Positions 3,917-22,352 of a DNA stretch of 42,557 nt are shown in pieces. Below the pieces are notes generated by a model. That model searched no databases. It was not told the DNA's origin and saw only the letters and a list, made by a program, of their open reading frames with translations. The number at the start of each line of letters is the position of its first letter. The stretch's first letter is position 1. The stretch is from Gammaproteobacteria bacterium (lineage in GTDB: Bacteria > Pseudomonadota > Gammaproteobacteria > Steroidobacterales > UBA11654): the NCBI GenBank assembly GCA_002691465.1, contig NZHP01000017.1, positions 1 through 42,557 on the forward strand. Direction: 5' to 3'. The position numbers were made by a program, and so were the translations under genes.

Positions 3917-4900
3917 TTATACCTGAAAGTAATTCAAACCTCTTGAATCTAGAATTTCACACACTTCTTCTATTCTGAGGCTTTCGTTGCTAATCAAAAG
4001 TCCTAAATCTCCTCCACCAGATCCAGATGGTTTATAAAAAATCCCTTCGCTCTCCGCAAACCTAATCATTTCATTATGATTATCAAAAATTCCAATATTA
4101 AGCTTTCTATCTAAATCTAATAATAAATCGTTGTATGCCCTAAGATGATTGAGTATTAAGTTACTGTCTTTTTTAGAGATGAAAGAATGAATATAATCCA
4201 ATTCCATCTTCATCTTTTCGGCTTGCTTTAAAAAATAAGATGGATACTCTTCTTTTCCGGCTTGATACCTGTCAATCATTCTTGATGTCTCTATGGATGT
4301 ATCATTTAAAACTGCAATCACAATCAAATCATCCGGAATATTAACTTGTTCATATTCAAGTTTCTTATTATTTGTGAGCCTGCAAGACAAAGCTCTTACT
4401 TCTTCATAAGATGCAACAACATCAAAGCCACTCCCTTTTGAATTTTGAGCATTTCTATGGGTTTCAATTGAATAATCAATAATTTTTTGAGGAGTAAGCC
4501 TCATCTCATAAAATTTATTGAAAGCCTTTGTAATCGCTACAGAAATTGCTGCGCTCGAGCCGATACCAATCTTCTTTTTCTCAAAGAAAAATTCATTTGT
4601 GTCAATGCTTATAGTTTTTCCTGTAAAGGTTTTTTTAAATTTTCTTATCGACTGCTGTAAAATGCTTCCCAGTTCCTCAGGATCCTCTTTGAGCCAGTTA
4701 ATATTTAAATCATCATTTAGCATAAAAGGATATGAGTTATTACTTAAAGACGAATTGAATAAATTGTGTGGCTTATTATTGTCACTTAATGAAACTCTTG
4801 CCTCTTGAGGAGTAGAAAGAATTATGGATTTCCCGCCTTCAAGAGCCATGTATTCGCCGGTAAAAAATACTTTACCTGATGCTTTAGTATCAATTTTCAT
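3917..4900 (-). CDS. GHMP-family kinase, probable phosphomevalonate kinase
   Basis: This 327-residue GHMP-superfamily kinase probably phosphorylates phosphomevalonate to diphosphomevalonate in isoprenoid synthesis. The N-terminal GKVFFTGEYMALEGG, the ATP loop KKIGIGSSAAIS, the motif KGSGFDVVAS and the C-terminal PSGSGGGDLG match the phosphomevalonate kinase pattern (GSSAA, GSGFD, GAGGGD) better than mevalonate kinase. The gene overlaps the end of mvaD by 11 bases, so translation is likely coupled and a role just before the decarboxylase is strongly suggested. It could instead be a mevalonate kinase of unusual type, because no other mevalonate-pathway kinase is in the window. The symbol is left blank because the exact substrate is inferred. 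Confidence 0.8.
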   Translation of the reverse strand: MKIDTKASGKVFFTGEYMALEGGKSIILSTPQEARVSLSDNNKPHNLFNSSLSNNSYPFMLNDDLNINWLKEDPEELGSILQQSIRKFKKTFTGKTISIDTNEFFFEKKKIGIGSSAAISVAITKAFNKFYEMRLTPQKIIDYSIETHRNAQNSKGSGFDVVASYEEVRALSCRLTNNKKLEYEQVNIPDDLIVIAVLNDTSIETSRMIDRYQAGKEEYPSYFLKQAEKMKMELDYIHSFISKKDSNLILNHLRAYNDLLLDLDRKLNIGIFDNHNEMIRFAESEGIFYKPSGSGGGDLGLLISNESLRIEEVCEILDSRGLNYFQV

Positions 4901-5855
4901 TAACTACTCTTGGTGACCCTCCAATTCCTGCATGAATAATTTCAATTACGTCTGTTTTTTCTATAATCTTTTCTTTAATGGCATTAGATGAACTGGGATC
5001 ACAAATAATTTTAACCTGGGGGCCGGCATCAATAGTGTAAAAGAGCTTGTGCCCTAAAACTCTTAAATTCTCTACCTCAGTGACACAACTTCTGGTCACG
5101 TCAGTCTTATATACAATCGAAGGACTTGAGGTTTTCATCACCTCATGCATGAGTTCACAATTTTTTTCAGTTACTCTCTCTAACTTTAAGATATTTTTCT
5201 CTCTAATAGCCTCCAATGCCTCATTGATATGCTCTTGATTAATATCAAGCCAATGATTATAAATAGTTGATGTTTTCCGAGAAATTTCCATGCCTTCTCT
5301 TGAGCTGATTTTTTTTGATTCAGTTGAAGCGATACAAATTAATACATCAAGGGGCCAATCTGATTTACCTAGGATTTGTGAGCATCTATAGCTGCGATTT
5401 TGATCCATTAAAACAAATCCTCCTAAGAGGGATCGAGGGGCTGAGCCTGAACCTAACATGCATGCTTTTACTCTGTCACTCATTTTCAATTCGATGTCAT
5501 AATGTGCTTCATAAGCGGTTACAAGAGATGCTATCCCAGATGCTGATGAAGCAAGTCCAGATGAGGTGGGGAAATTATTTTCTGATTTTATAACTAGAAA
5601 ATCATTAGACTTCGAGATTTTTGATAGATATTGCAAGGACGGAATAATTTTTGATATGTCCTGCTCTTCTTCTCCATTTATAAATAACCTATGTTGCTTA
5701 GATGATAAATTTTTATATATTTTTGTTTTTGAGTGCATTGAGTCAACAGTTATAGAAATAGAGCTCATTGCAGGCATGTTTTGATCAATATCTTTCTTTC
5801 CCCAATACTTCACTAAGGCAAAATTTGGATGTGCAATGGCTGTTGTTTGTGTCAA
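4890..5855 (-). CDS. mvaD: Diphosphomevalonate decarboxylase
   Basis: ATP-dependent decarboxylation of mevalonate diphosphate to isopentenyl diphosphate (321 aa, normal length). Visible signatures are HPNFALVKYWGKKD near the N-terminus, PAMSSISITVD, the ATP/substrate loop NFPTSSGLASSASG, LGSGSAPRSLLGGFV, and TIDAGPQVKII carrying the catalytic Asp region. The start is a TTG at 5853-5855, because no ATG lies before the conserved N-terminal motif; a GAGAG purine run precedes it. It heads a two-gene minus-strand operon with the GHMP kinase and diverges from ispA, which uses the product. Together they indicate a mevalonate route, whereas most gammaproteobacteria use the MEP route. Confidence 0.93.
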   Translation of the reverse strand: MTQTTAIAHPNFALVKYWGKKDIDQNMPAMSSISITVDSMHSKTKIYKNLSSKQHRLFINGEEEQDISKIIPSLQYLSKISKSNDFLVIKSENNFPTSSGLASSASGIASLVTAYEAHYDIELKMSDRVKACMLGSGSAPRSLLGGFVLMDQNRSYRCSQILGKSDWPLDVLICIASTESKKISSREGMEISRKTSTIYNHWLDINQEHINEALEAIREKNILKLERVTEKNCELMHEVMKTSSPSIVYKTDVTRSCVTEVENLRVLGHKLFYTIDAGPQVKIICDPSSSNAIKEKIIEKTDVIEIIHAGIGGSPRVVNEN

Positions 5856-18102: not shown

Positions 18103-19332
18103 ATGAACTTCGATTATTCAGAAAAAGTTTTGGATCTCATGAGTAAATTAAATGCCTTTATGGATGAAAATATTTATCCCAATGAAGCAGCTTATGCTGA
18201 ACACTTCAAAACAACAGAGGACAAATGGAAAGCAGCGCCAATCATGTCTGAACTCAAATGCAAAGCCAGAGATGCAGGACTTTGGAATCTTTTTCTTCCA
18301 GACTCAGAAAATGGTGCTGGACTAAATAACCTAGAATATGCGCCGCTTGCAGAAATCATGGGACGTGCACCATGGTGTTCGGAAGCTTTCAACTGCAGCG
18401 CACCAGACACTGGGAATATGGAAGTACTGGATCGGTACGGCACTGATGAGCATAAAAATGAATGGTTAAGTCCTCTCCTGAATGGTGAAATCAGATCGGT
18501 CTTCTGTATGACAGAGCCTGCTGTGGCTTCATCAGATGCAACAAATATTGAGTCGCCAATTGTAAGAGACGGTGACCATTATGTGATCAATGGAAGAAAA
18601 TGGTGGAGCTCAGGTGCAATGAATGAAGATTGCAAGCTCATCATATTCATGGGTAAAACTGATCCGGATAATCCAAGCAGACATAAACAACAATCGATGA
18701 TTCTTATACCAATGGATACGCCTGGCGTGAATGTAATTAGACCGCTTTCAGTATTTGGCGGATATGACTATCCACATGGGCATGCAGAAGTTGAATTTAA
18801 AGATGTGAAAGTTCCAGTTGAGAACATGCTTTTAGGAGAAGGAAGAGGCTTTGAAATCGCTCAAGGCAGGCTTGGCCCAGGAAGAATTCATCATTGCATG
18901 AGGCTAATTGGCATGGCGAGCAGAGCTCTCGAAATGATGTGTATAAGAGCAGAAAAGAGGATTGCTTTCGGTAAGCCCTTGAGCGCACAAGGCTCAGTGA
19001 GAGAGTCGATTGCAGTTTCTGCGAGCGAAATCGAGCAGTCAAGGTTACTCACGCTTAAGGCTGCTGACAAGATGGATAAGTATGGAAACAAAGAGGCAAG
19101 CGATCTAATCAGTATGATTAAAGTTGTGGGGCCAAGAATGGCGTGTAATGTCATTGACAGAGCTATACAAGTTCATGGTGGTGGTGGTGTCTCGGATGAC
19201 TTTTTCTTGGCAGAAGCTTATGCCCATGCAAGAACCCTGAGATTGGCTGATGGCCCAGATGAGGTGCATTTGGCGTCCCTTGCAAAAAAAGTGCTCAAAC
19301 AGGAAGCGATGATTGACGCAGGAAGGGCCTAA
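18103..19332 (+). CDS. Acyl-CoA dehydrogenase, LvaC/ACAD11-like
   Basis: Flavin-dependent acyl-CoA dehydrogenase-fold enzyme (409 aa). Evidence includes [37 protein letters not shown] and [13 protein letters not shown]. Near the C-terminus, where ordinary family members read YEGT, it has LADGPDEVH (residues 381-389), the wording I associate with ACAD10/ACAD11 and bacterial LvaC. In Pseudomonas putida levulinate catabolism LvaC acts with the kinase LvaA to turn 4-hydroxyacyl-CoA into a 2-enoyl- or 3-hydroxyacyl-CoA. The next gene is an LvaA-like kinase, which supports this reading. AAGGAG at 18091-18096 gives a strong ribosome site inside the end of the exonuclease gene. Confidence 0.88.
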
Positions 19333-19337
19333 TAATC

Positions 19338-20369
19338 TTGGATAAAAATTCTGTTCATTCGCTTGATCATCAGAAGCTTTCTGAGTTTCTAACTAACAAT
19401 CTTCCTCAAACAGGTGAGTTAAAAGAAATTAGTAAGTTTGGAACTGGCCAATCAAATCCAACTTATCTCTTGATAACTTCGAATGGGAAATACGTCTTAA
19501 GAAAAAAGCCGCCAGGAAAGTTGTTGCCTTCTGCTCATGCAGTTGACAGAGAGTACAGGATCATAAAAGCTCTGGAAAAAACATCGGTTCCAGTTCCAAA
19601 AACTCTGATGCTTTGCGATGACGAAGAAGTGATCGGAACCATCTTTTATCTCATGGATCATGTTGACGGAAAAATTCACTGGGATCCAACATTGCCAGAA
19701 TTAGATTCAAGTGACCGAAAAGAAATCTATCAACAAACAGTCGATGTATTGGCAGCGCTTCACTCTATCGATGTTGAGAAAGAGAGACTGATGGATTTTG
19801 GAAAACCAGGAAATTATTTTCAGCGTCAAGTTGGTCGATGGATAAAGCAGTATCGTGCAGCAGAGACTGAGACATACTCTGAGATTGAATCATTGATTTC
19901 TTGGCTTGAAAAAAATATGCCTGACGATGATGGCATGATTTCCATCGTTCATGGTGATTATCGTCTGTACAATATGATCTTCAGTCACTCTGAGAACAAG
20001 ATTCTGGCTGTTTTAGATTGGGAACTATCAACAATCGGTCATCCTTACGCTGACCTGGCTTATCAGTGCATGAACTGGTATATCCCAAAAATAGGCATTA
20101 CCCCGGGATTATATGGACTTTCTTTAGATGGAACAGGTATTCCAACCGAAAAAGAATATGTTGATTCATACTGCAAAAAAATGGGAATTGATCACATTCC
20201 AAACTGGCCATTTTATCTTGCTTTTGGGTTCTTTCGATTGGCTGGCATTGCGCAGGGTGTCTATAAGAGGTCTATTATGGGAAATGCTTCAGCAAAAAAT
20301 GCAGGTGAACTTGGTGCTGCAGTTCCAATACTTGGAAAAATTGCAAATGGTATAATTCAAACAAAATGA
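19338..20369 (+). CDS. APH-fold phosphotransferase, LvaA/ACAD10-11 kinase-like
   Basis: Aminoglycoside-phosphotransferase-fold kinase (343 aa). It has a nucleotide-loop segment GTGQSNPTYLL, the Lys-containing strand KYVLRKKPPG, a catalytic loop HGDYRLYN (D207, N212) and a metal-binding Asp in LDWE (D227). Not an antibiotic-resistance gene: in ACAD10/ACAD11 this domain is fused to the dehydrogenase, and bacterial LvaA phosphorylates the 4-hydroxyl of 4-hydroxyacyl-CoA. Here the two are separate neighbours five bases apart. The start is a TTG at 19338 with AGGAAGGG upstream; no ATG precedes the conserved region. The physiological substrate is inferred. Confidence 0.87.
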   Translation: MDKNSVHSLDHQKLSEFLTNNLPQTGELKEISKFGTGQSNPTYLLITSNGKYVLRKKPPGKLLPSAHAVDREYRIIKALEKTSVPVPKTLMLCDDEEVIGTIFYLMDHVDGKIHWDPTLPELDSSDRKEIYQQTVDVLAALHSIDVEKERLMDFGKPGNYFQRQVGRWIKQYRAAETETYSEIESLISWLEKNMPDDDGMISIVHGDYRLYNMIFSHSENKILAVLDWELSTIGHPYADLAYQCMNWYIPKIGITPGLYGLSLDGTGIPTEKEYVDSYCKKMGIDHIPNWPFYLAFGFFRLAGIAQGVYKRSIMGNASAKNAGELGAAVPILGKIANGIIQTK

Positions 20370-21607
20370 GCAAAGAAAGATATTCTCTAAAAGAAGCTTC
20401 GCGAATCAGAAAAGCACTGAGGGCAATCTCCAGTTTGAATGCTCTTGTTTATAAAGTTAGCAATGGCAAGATTTGGGGCAAATGGGGTGGAAAGTATCCG
20501 ATCATGATATTGTCTGTTTTTGGCTCTAAAACAGGAAAGGTCAGAAAGGTGCCACTTATCAAAGTCATGAATGATAATAAGCCTATCCTAGTAGCATCAA
20601 TGGGTGGAATGCCGATGCATCCAAACTGGTACTTCAATGTCATGGCAAATCCGAGAATTGCTGTTCAAATTGGCTCAGAAAAAAAATATTACCTCGCAAA
20701 AAAATTAACGGATGATGAAAAAAATAAGATCTGGCCAACCGTCTGCTCTTTCTATCCCGACTATGATAAATACAAAAAGAATACACAGAGAAACATTGGC
20801 GTTTTTTCCTGCGAAGAAAAAGCAATGTCTAAAGAATGGAGAAAATGGATATCTGAGAATATTGATCGAGGTTGCGATAAAAATGAACTTTACTCAATAC
20901 TTTATCATGAAGGATTTCATCCTGAGCTTATAGCTGCTGAACTGCATATACGTGTAGGAGATTTTAAATTACAGCCAGAAAAGAAAAAGTCAACGAAAGA
21001 GGAAAATATACAAAACATGGTCCATGCATTCAAAAATGCACACAAAGAAATTCCGATCTATACCGATGTTGGATTCAAAAAAGATAAATTGAATAAAGGC
21101 CTTCACCAAAAAATCCTCAAGTTTTACGAAGAGAACAGCGCATCACTGCAAGTTGAGAATGTTGCAGGTGGATATATAGAAACAGATGGAAAAGGCTCTG
21201 CGAGTCACACTATCGAAATGCCAAATGACCTCAGAGATGAAGTTCATCAATCATTATTGAGTAAGGCCGAAGATTGGTCTGGAATTAGATTATTGCCAAC
21301 CTATGTTTATGGAGTAAGAATCTATAATCGAGGAGCAATACTGAAGCCACATCGTGACAGAGAGGAAACCCATATCATAGGCGTGATTATCAACATCGAA
21401 CAAAAGGTAGATATACCTTGGGCTCTAGAAATTCAAGATCATCAAAAAAATAATCATGAAATTTTTCTATTGCCTGGTGAAGTAATATTTTATGAAAGCG
21501 CTACACTTGACCACGGAAGACCGGCTCCACTCGAAGGAGAAAAATTTGTCAATGTCTTTTGTCATTACATGCCTTATTTAAAAGAAGAGAACAACGATGA
21601 AATTTGA
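20366..21607 (+). CDS. Nitroreductase-like (DUF385) + 2OG-Fe(II) oxygenase fusion
   Basis: A 413-residue protein with two recognisable halves. Residues ~30-150 resemble the deazaflavin-dependent nitroreductase (Ddn/DUF385) fold: GSKTGKVRKVPLI, SMGGMPMHPNWYFNVMANP. Residues ~155-200 form a helical segment (IDRGCDKNELYSIL, EGFHPELIAAEL) I cannot assign. Residues ~300-405 are a 2-oxoglutarate/Fe(II) oxygenase: YGVRIYNRGAILKPHRD with His329 and Asp331, distal His383 in LDHGRP, and Lys393 ten residues on as probable 2OG ligand, as in prolyl hydroxylases. The metal triad is intact. It overlaps the kinase gene by four bases (ATGA) and the next gene by 11. Substrate unknown. No F420 gene is seen here, so the first domain may bind another flavin or none. 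Confidence 0.75.
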   Translation: MSKERYSLKEASRIRKALRAISSLNALVYKVSNGKIWGKWGGKYPIMILSVFGSKTGKVRKVPLIKVMNDNKPILVASMGGMPMHPNWYFNVMANPRIAVQIGSEKKYYLAKKLTDDEKNKIWPTVCSFYPDYDKYKKNTQRNIGVFSCEEKAMSKEWRKWISENIDRGCDKNELYSILYHEGFHPELIAAELHIRVGDFKLQPEKKKSTKEENIQNMVHAFKNAHKEIPIYTDVGFKKDKLNKGLHQKILKFYEENSASLQVENVAGGYIETDGKGSASHTIEMPNDLRDEVHQSLLSKAEDWSGIRLLPTYVYGVRIYNRGAILKPHRDREETHIIGVIINIEQKVDIPWALEIQDHQKNNHEIFLLPGEVIFYESATLDHGRPAPLEGEKFVNVFCHYMPYLKEENNDEI

Positions 21608-22352
21608 TGGCGCAATAGTTATCAGCGGAGGATTTGATCCCATTCACATTGGTCACCTTCGTATGATTAAGGATGCTTCGAAGCTTGGTACAAAATTAAT
21701 TGTCATTGCAAATTGTGATCGCTTCTTAGTGGATAAGAAAGGCTATGTGTTTATGCCAATTGAAGAACGGCTAGAAATCCTTGAAAGCTTTGATGGTGTT
21801 GATAGGGCTGTGGAGTCTATTGACGATGATATGACGGTTTGTAAGACAATTGAGTGGCTCGCAAAAGATGAAGATATTGCATGTTTTGCAAATGGAGGTG
21901 ATCGAAGAAATGAAGATGACATACCTGAATCTTTTGTTTGTGAAAAATATGGGATAGAAATGGAATTCAATGTCGGTGGAGGGAAAATACAATCAAGCTC
22001 TAGCCTTGTCGGAGGTGAAGTTAAAAAACCATGGGGTTCATACAAAACCTTTGAAAAGGGCAATGGTTATTTACTGAAAAGAATGACCATCAACCAAGGA
22101 GAAATACTCTCTCTTCAATCCCATGAAAACCGGTCAGAATTTTGGTATGTTTCAGAAGGCGTAGCCACCGTAGAGTGTGATGATAATACCTTCGATCTAA
22201 AGAAACATGAATCAACAAATATCCCTCAAAAATCAAAACACAGGCTCAGTAATAACTCGAATGGAATATTAAAAGTTATTGAAGTTCAGATTGGTGATCT
22301 TTTGAGTGAAGACGATATCACTCGATACGAAGATCGTTATGCCCGTGACTGA
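21597..22352 (+). CDS. Nucleotidyltransferase + phosphomannose-isomerase-type cupin fusion
   Basis: A 251-residue two-domain protein. Residues ~1-135 are a cytidylyltransferase-like domain: GGFDPIHIGHLRMI carries the HxGH motif, followed by MPIEERLEIL, ANGGDRR and KIQSSSSLV near the usual C-terminal signature. Residues ~142-250 are a cupin like the C-terminus of type II mannose-6-phosphate isomerase/ManC: KPWGSYKTFEKGNGYLLKR, LQSHENRSEFWYVSEG and PQKSKHRL, with metal-ligand-type His and Glu. It lacks the mannose-1-phosphate guanylyltransferase domain of ManC. A role in activating a phosphorylated sugar or polyol for surface glycans is a guess. It is last in the five-gene run; its end overlaps the convergent unknown gene by 16 bases. 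Confidence 0.75.
   Translation: MKFDGAIVISGGFDPIHIGHLRMIKDASKLGTKLIVIANCDRFLVDKKGYVFMPIEERLEILESFDGVDRAVESIDDDMTVCKTIEWLAKDEDIACFANGGDRRNEDDIPESFVCEKYGIEMEFNVGGGKIQSSSSLVGGEVKKPWGSYKTFEKGNGYLLKRMTINQGEILSLQSHENRSEFWYVSEGVATVECDDNTFDLKKHESTNIPQKSKHRLSNNSNGILKVIEVQIGDLLSEDDITRYEDRYARD

Follow-up and report, generated by a model that had tools for sequence, protein, structure and literature searches.

The DNA analyzed here, a 42,557-nucleotide contig of a gammaproteobacterial draft genome (GCA_002691465.1, contig NZHP01000017.1; hereafter the window), carries an open reading frame in which a Ddn-type, F420H2-dependent reductase domain is joined through a helical segment to a 2-oxoglutarate (2OG)/Fe(II)-oxygenase domain, termed D2. 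We hold it reasonably probable that this frame encodes a true bifunctional enzyme, an F420 reductase and an Fe/2OG oxygenase in one chain, with a single origin and, by preference, an acyl operon setting. Both domains are likely to be catalytically active. The two domains had been recognized in a preliminary description of the sequence, and a PF04075 match and the predicted fold now support both assignments; its statement that no characterized enzyme has this architecture agrees with the literature searched, in which none was found.

The fused frame and its F420-type domain

The frame has exactly the coordinates first assigned to it (Table 1). At its 5' end it overlaps the kinase gene upstream by four bases (ATGA, start and stop combined), and its 3' end shares 11 bases with the downstream gene. 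Full-length fusions are present in six genomes of the genus, the window's own (G000) and G008, G002, G003, G009 and G006, the latter five encoding orthologues 68–85% identical to the window's protein; three of the full-length fusions were also found independently as public records (AG-447-O13, AG-365-L08 and MED656). Pairwise dN/dS values of 0.07–0.16 for the Ddn domain and 0.04–0.11 for D2 indicate that both catalytic domains are under purifying selection.

Table 1. Positions in the window of the fusion gene, its domains and motifs, and its neighbors
Feature	Position	Strand	Evidence or remark
ACAD11-like acyl-CoA dehydrogenase, same operon	18103..19332	+	best PDB match ACAD11 8v3u, E=2e-136
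ACAD11-kinase-like APH-fold kinase	19338..20369	+	8v3v (ACAD11 kinase region), E=2e-85; PF01636, E=1e-51
Fusion CDS (Ddn + helical segment + D2 oxygenase), 413 aa	20366..21607	+	5 other genomes encode full-length orthologues
FDOR-A domain of the Ddn / F420H2-dependent quinone reductase type, residues 27-150	20444..20815	+	PF04075, PDB sequence matches, Foldseek
Three-helix RGC..GF segment, residues ~153-200	20822..20965	+	common to tandem 2OG oxygenases and phage helical+D2 proteins
D2 of the phrog_2954 family, predicted 2OG/Fe(II)-oxygenase (DSBH) domain, residues ~228-403	21047..21574	+	fold, alignment
H329-x-D331, first two iron ligands	21350..21358	+	conserved in 43/44 aligned rows
H383-G-R385, containing the distal iron ligand and the candidate 2OG anchor, an invariant Arg	21512..21520	+	H383 in 43/44, R385 in 44/44 rows
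Cytidylyltransferase-like + mannose-6-P isomerase-type cupin protein, next gene	21597..22352	+	PF01467, E=1e-12; PF01050, E=1e-30

Residues 27–150 match PF04075 (E=1.9e-33; 115.8 bits against a cut-off of 22), so that the flavin-split-barrel assignment stands, and TIGR00026 (E=6e-25; 88.1 bits against 46.35). The best solved relatives in a PDB sequence search are F420-bound proteins, namely Rv1558 (7kl8), Nocardia 3r5z/3r5y and Mycobacterium tuberculosis (Mtb) Ddn (3r5r), and Foldseek with the N-terminal part of the predicted structure also retrieved F420-bound FDOR-A structures (7kl8 at E=2.5e-10; 3r5r with a TMt of 0.84), the model's pLDDT in this region being ~60–80, which makes its relative domain orientation unreliable. 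Mtb Ddn contacts F420 through the side chains of R54, T56, R60, K79, W88, N91 and Y133 (PMC3267046). The corresponding positions of the fusion are S54, T56, R60, M79, W88, N91 and Y133, five of the seven being kept, and at the two replaced contacts, 54 and 79, F420-bound Rv1558 has Ala and Leu. Equal numbering of the two proteins was inferred from the 3r5r match, which spans residues 4–111 of both, with the agreement at W88, N91 and Y133 as a check. The domain thus has the split barrel of the FDOR-A family (Mtb Ddn, Rv1558, MSMEG_2027), its T56, R60, W88 and N91 and its Y130/Y133/Y136 set, but Ser and Met in place of R54 and K79; and whereas each solved member found consists of this domain alone, in this gammaproteobacterium it makes up the first third of a fused protein. 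FDOR-A enzymes are reported to reduce quinones, enones and enals (PMC8498797). A second, free-standing Ddn paralogue is encoded in the same genome (L001:1345-1890; PF04075, E=3e-36).

The cofactor of such a domain in a gammaproteobacterium had aptly been singled out as the key question. Contig C39 of the same genome carries npdG, cofE, cofD, cofC and fbiC side by side (L050:4050-9503), each over its curated cut-off (TIGR01915, TIGR01916, TIGR01819 and TIGR03552 for the first four; NF006687 and TIGR03550/03551 for the bifunctional fbiC). The complete set of pathway genes and the five retained contacts largely answer the question in favor of F420, as far as sequence can tell. Each of the ten genus genomes searched has cofD, cofE and cofH/fbiC, and cofD scored over cut-off in 13 of 321 sampled gammaproteobacterial genomes, indicating that the F420 trait is uncommon in the class, yet not unique to these organisms. 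A 2021 review of F420 names Alpha- and Betaproteobacteria, and the word Gammaproteobacteria is absent from it (PMC8498797). Contig C39 also encodes an F420-type LLM oxidoreductase (L050:14225-15271, minus strand).

The predicted oxygenase domain

The AlphaFold2 model used was computed from a 47-row alignment (mean pLDDT 84; a model from a six-row alignment, with a pLDDT of 63, was set aside). In it, the RGC..GF segment forms helices at residues 156–167, 172–181 and 186–193, and pLDDT is mostly 91–98 over residues ~231–400. The segment, first described as unassigned, is instead the N-terminal module of bacterial tandem 2OG oxygenases and of phage proteins composed of a helical segment and D2. 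Foldseek matched the C-terminal part of the model to the Pseudomonas putida P4H:EF-Tu structure (4iw3, E=1.3e-6), PHD2 and ALKBH7, and the best viral-model match was a 2OG oxygenase of cyanophage S-SCSM1. The Pfam search, including the 2OG-FeII_Oxy/P4H profiles suggested for it earlier, gave no match of the C-terminal part at E<1; PF13640 and PF13661 gave sub-threshold matches to D2-type sequences and none to the fusion protein; and a D2 profile searched against PDB sequences returned chance-level matches only (PiuC at E=1.8–2.1). D2 is accordingly assigned to its superfamily by fold and iron triad and not by a Pfam profile; judged by model and alignment, it is a double-stranded beta-helix (DSBH) 2OG/Fe(II)-oxygenase domain with an intact triad.

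Residues R318, Y320, H329, D331, H383, R385 and H400 are invariant or nearly so among the 47 aligned rows, and the triad His329-Asp331-His383, which had been read as intact, is kept in all but one of 44 aligned rows. In P4H and PHD2, a conserved Lys or Arg ~10 residues past the distal His anchors 2OG through its C5 carboxylate. Lys393 had been noted alongside the triad, but position 393 is Lys in only 6 of 45 rows and elsewhere mostly Tyr, Phe, Ser or Glu (Ser in two fusions), and K393 was rejected as the anchor of the family. Since K393 is variable while R385 is invariant, R385 is the better candidate for the 2OG anchor. Lacking a conserved Lys or Arg ~10 residues after the distal His, D2 is predicted to bind its co-substrate in an unusual way. 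D2 therefore shares with prolyl hydroxylases (4IW3, PHD2) and with the PKHD protein PiuC the DSBH fold and the HxD...H triad, but differs from them in having no conserved Lys/Arg at 9–10 residues after the distal His, in its invariant R385 (H+2) and H400, and in that no Pfam profile reaches its cut-off on D2. Of the original label "prolyl-hydroxylase-like", the P4H/PHD2 fold survives; D2 is no canonical prolyl-4-hydroxylase, and the canonical P4H-type domain (D1) of the tandem oxygenases, in which a Lys is present ~10 residues after the distal His, is missing from the fusion.

Origin, neighborhood and proposed function

The window's gene order is exonuclease, acyl-CoA dehydrogenase, kinase, fusion, cytidylyltransferase-cupin, YegS-like kinase and cupredoxin. 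At the same locus of G005, exonuclease, acyl-CoA dehydrogenase and APH kinase are followed by two metallo-beta-lactamase-fold proteins, a free Ddn, a tandem oxygenase made up of the helical segment, the P4H domain D1 and D2, a protein O-mannosyltransferase (PMT), a DPM1/GtrA transferase, and then cytidylyltransferase-cupin, YegS-like kinase and cupredoxin. G006 still has the two metallo-beta-lactamase-fold genes between kinase and fusion; G001 has a split fusion, then PMT and the transferase; and G009 (bin contamination 4%) has, besides a contig with the fusion, a different one with an unfused Ddn, tandem and PMT. Tandem oxygenases of ~470–505 aa (G005, G009, G047, G360, G487 and G1108) have the helical segment and D2 of the fusion, and their D2s group with it in the tree, but, unlike it, they have no Ddn and retain D1, which scored over the PF13640 cut-off in the three proteins scanned. 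In the D2 tree, fused D2s form one clade (100/99) whose nearest tandem is that of G487 (92/89, below the threshold for starring) rather than the tandems of the same genus. In the Ddn tree, fused Ddn domains group with the unfused neighbors of the tandem (99/99), apart from paralogues, a single clade of fused Ddn being weakly supported (65/41).

These layouts suggest that the G005 arrangement, a separate Ddn followed by a tandem, is likely the ancestral state, and that the fusion would have arisen once, by shrinkage of the gene cluster, with loss of D1 and in-frame joining of Ddn to the helical segment; it is from the locus layouts of relatives that we infer this deletion. That a phage supplied the complete fusion by horizontal transfer is not supported, as the viral ORFs examined gave no Ddn match and fused D2 groups with bacterial tandem D2, although helical+D2 phage proteins do exist. 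The two ORFs of G001, in overlapping frames (L029:2484-2536, minus strand), suggest one frameshift in an ancestral fusion, either a real mutation or a sequencing error.

The fusion overlaps the ACAD11-like kinase gene, which follows its dehydrogenase partner, and for this reason an acyl setting is favored. The products of both upstream genes are closely related to the dehydrogenase and kinase domains of ACAD11, and resemble ACAD10/ACAD11 and LvaA/LvaC; the genes adjoin the fusion and are not part of it, a functional link being a proposal. In ACAD10/11, 4-hydroxyacyl-CoA is phosphorylated and the phosphate then eliminated, like in bacterial LvaA/LvaC (PMC11342911). As separate adjacent genes (18103-20369), the window's dehydrogenase and kinase probably serve the entry of 4-hydroxyacyl-CoA into beta-oxidation. 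In the proposed mechanism, Fno (npdG) would reduce F420 with NADPH, the Ddn domain would use F420H2 as hydride donor to a quinone or an alpha,beta-unsaturated carbonyl, D2 would hydroxylate a C-H bond with Fe(II), O2 and 2-oxoglutarate, and the fusion would process hydroxylated or unsaturated acyl compounds together with its operon partners. Taken by itself, this acyl or hydroxyacyl setting is a tentative proposal drawn from the neighborhood. Further upstream (3917-5855), next to farnesyl diphosphate synthase, the window encodes a mevalonate route, probably unusual for Gammaproteobacteria: a diphosphomevalonate decarboxylase scored over the TIGR01240 cut-off, and a gene resembling phosphomevalonate/mevalonate kinases stayed below its cut-off.

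The PMT and DPM1-like genes of the precursor locus point away from acyl chemistry, toward modification of a protein or glycoconjugate. It is accordingly possible, if doubtful, that D2 is a protein (prolyl-type) hydroxylase descended from a cluster for hydroxylation and O-mannosylation, with Ddn redox chemistry unrelated or supporting and the fusion a by-product of genome shrinkage whose domains act independently. Among solved structures, the folds nearest to the oxygenase part are indeed those of hydroxylases acting on prolyl residues of proteins (PHD2, and P. putida P4H with EF-Tu); the oxygenase gene precedes PMT and then the DPM1/GtrA-type transferase in both G005 (L177:9619-12106; PMT matching PF02366 and PF16192) and G001 (L178:7499-10053); PMT was found within the genus in G005, G009 and G001 only; and in cyanophage S-SCSM1 a protein O-fucosyltransferase gene lies directly between a D1-type gene and a D2 gene. 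However, PMT was undetected in the five genomes having only an intact fusion (drafts 64–92% complete), which suggests that D2 there works without PMT, and the tandems of G487 and G360 lie beside neither PMT nor Ddn.

A stronger version of the bifunctional reading, close to the preliminary idea of two domains acting sequentially on one substrate, is a tethered two-cofactor enzyme in which F420H2 reduction and Fe/2OG hydroxylation would follow one another on the same molecule, with D2 using a previously undescribed R385/H400 arrangement for 2OG binding shared with its phage relatives. We regard this as unlikely, and the evidence does not require sequential action. Somewhat more improbable still is a D2 that is a non-catalytic or altered DSBH domain, a scaffold or sensor, leaving Ddn as the sole enzyme: the family does lack a conserved basic residue at the usual anchor position, but the His-x-Asp...His triad persists even among free-standing proteins and distant phage forms, R385 and H400 do not vary, and dN/dS is low. 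That the fusion is an artefact of assembly or binning, as a draft genome of 41 contigs and 84% completeness and the overlapping half-frames of G001 might suggest, is scarcely conceivable given six genomes with full-length copies and conserved synteny, separately deposited records among them, and an assembly join of two genes is thereby ruled out; the frame first read as one genuine fusion is one.

Phage relatives of D2 and the ferrochelatase label

Outside the fusion, relatives of D2 occur as D1+D2 proteins in many marine phage contigs, as helical+D2 proteins in three phage loci and as free-standing bacterial proteins. Among sampled genomes, 5 of 369 from the class, 21 of 396 from the order and 5 of 399 from the phylum had a D2, the window's own genome being counted in each. 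An architecture search, as proposed at the outset, finds the Ddn fusion in the six genus genomes, with none recognized outside the genus among the D2 matches listed, the Ddn scan having covered part of the ORFs. The helical+D2-only phage proteins lie at L086:1200-1979, L087:2288-3199 and L089:4800-5582 (the last ORF being the same as in L088), the first two upstream of a terminase-like ORF. Members of the phage family phrog_2954 have a D2 with HxD...HGR or HWR, and their ~260-aa form has the helical+D2 layout of the fusion; they differ from it in that no viral locus tested contained Ddn and that many are D1+D2 proteins.

PHROG 2954, which matches the fusion protein at E=7.5e-20, is named ferrochelatase. 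It is exceedingly improbable that D2 is one: no ferrochelatase Pfam match at E<1 was obtained for the fusion protein or for two phage proteins so annotated (these had no Pfam match at all), the predicted fold is a DSBH matching P4H and PHD2, and HxD...H is conserved. The two phage "ferrochelatases", L166:2354-2974 (HTVC023P gp67) and L167:2432-3022 (S-RIM32), carry D2's HxD...HWR signature. On profile and fold, the label is probably a misnomer and the family oxygenase-like. Two studies rely on the label: an oxygenase has been reported to adjoin whenever a phage encodes ferrochelatase (PMC9599517), and phrog61 and phrog2954 are both enriched in seasonal viruses (PMC11561400); an oxygenase nature of phrog_2954 would account for the pairing with 2OG oxygenases. 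If the family is mislabeled, there would be consequences for both of these studies and for arguments about iron and heme metabolism in marine phages.

For the bacteria themselves, the analysis shows that F420 genes and reductases of the F420 type are present in streamlined marine members of the Gammaproteobacteria, a class absent from the main review of F420 distribution. With the fusion, F420 and 2OG chemistry may be tested jointly on one compact protein, and its locus provides a comparative system in which the origin of a fusion can be traced across close relatives.
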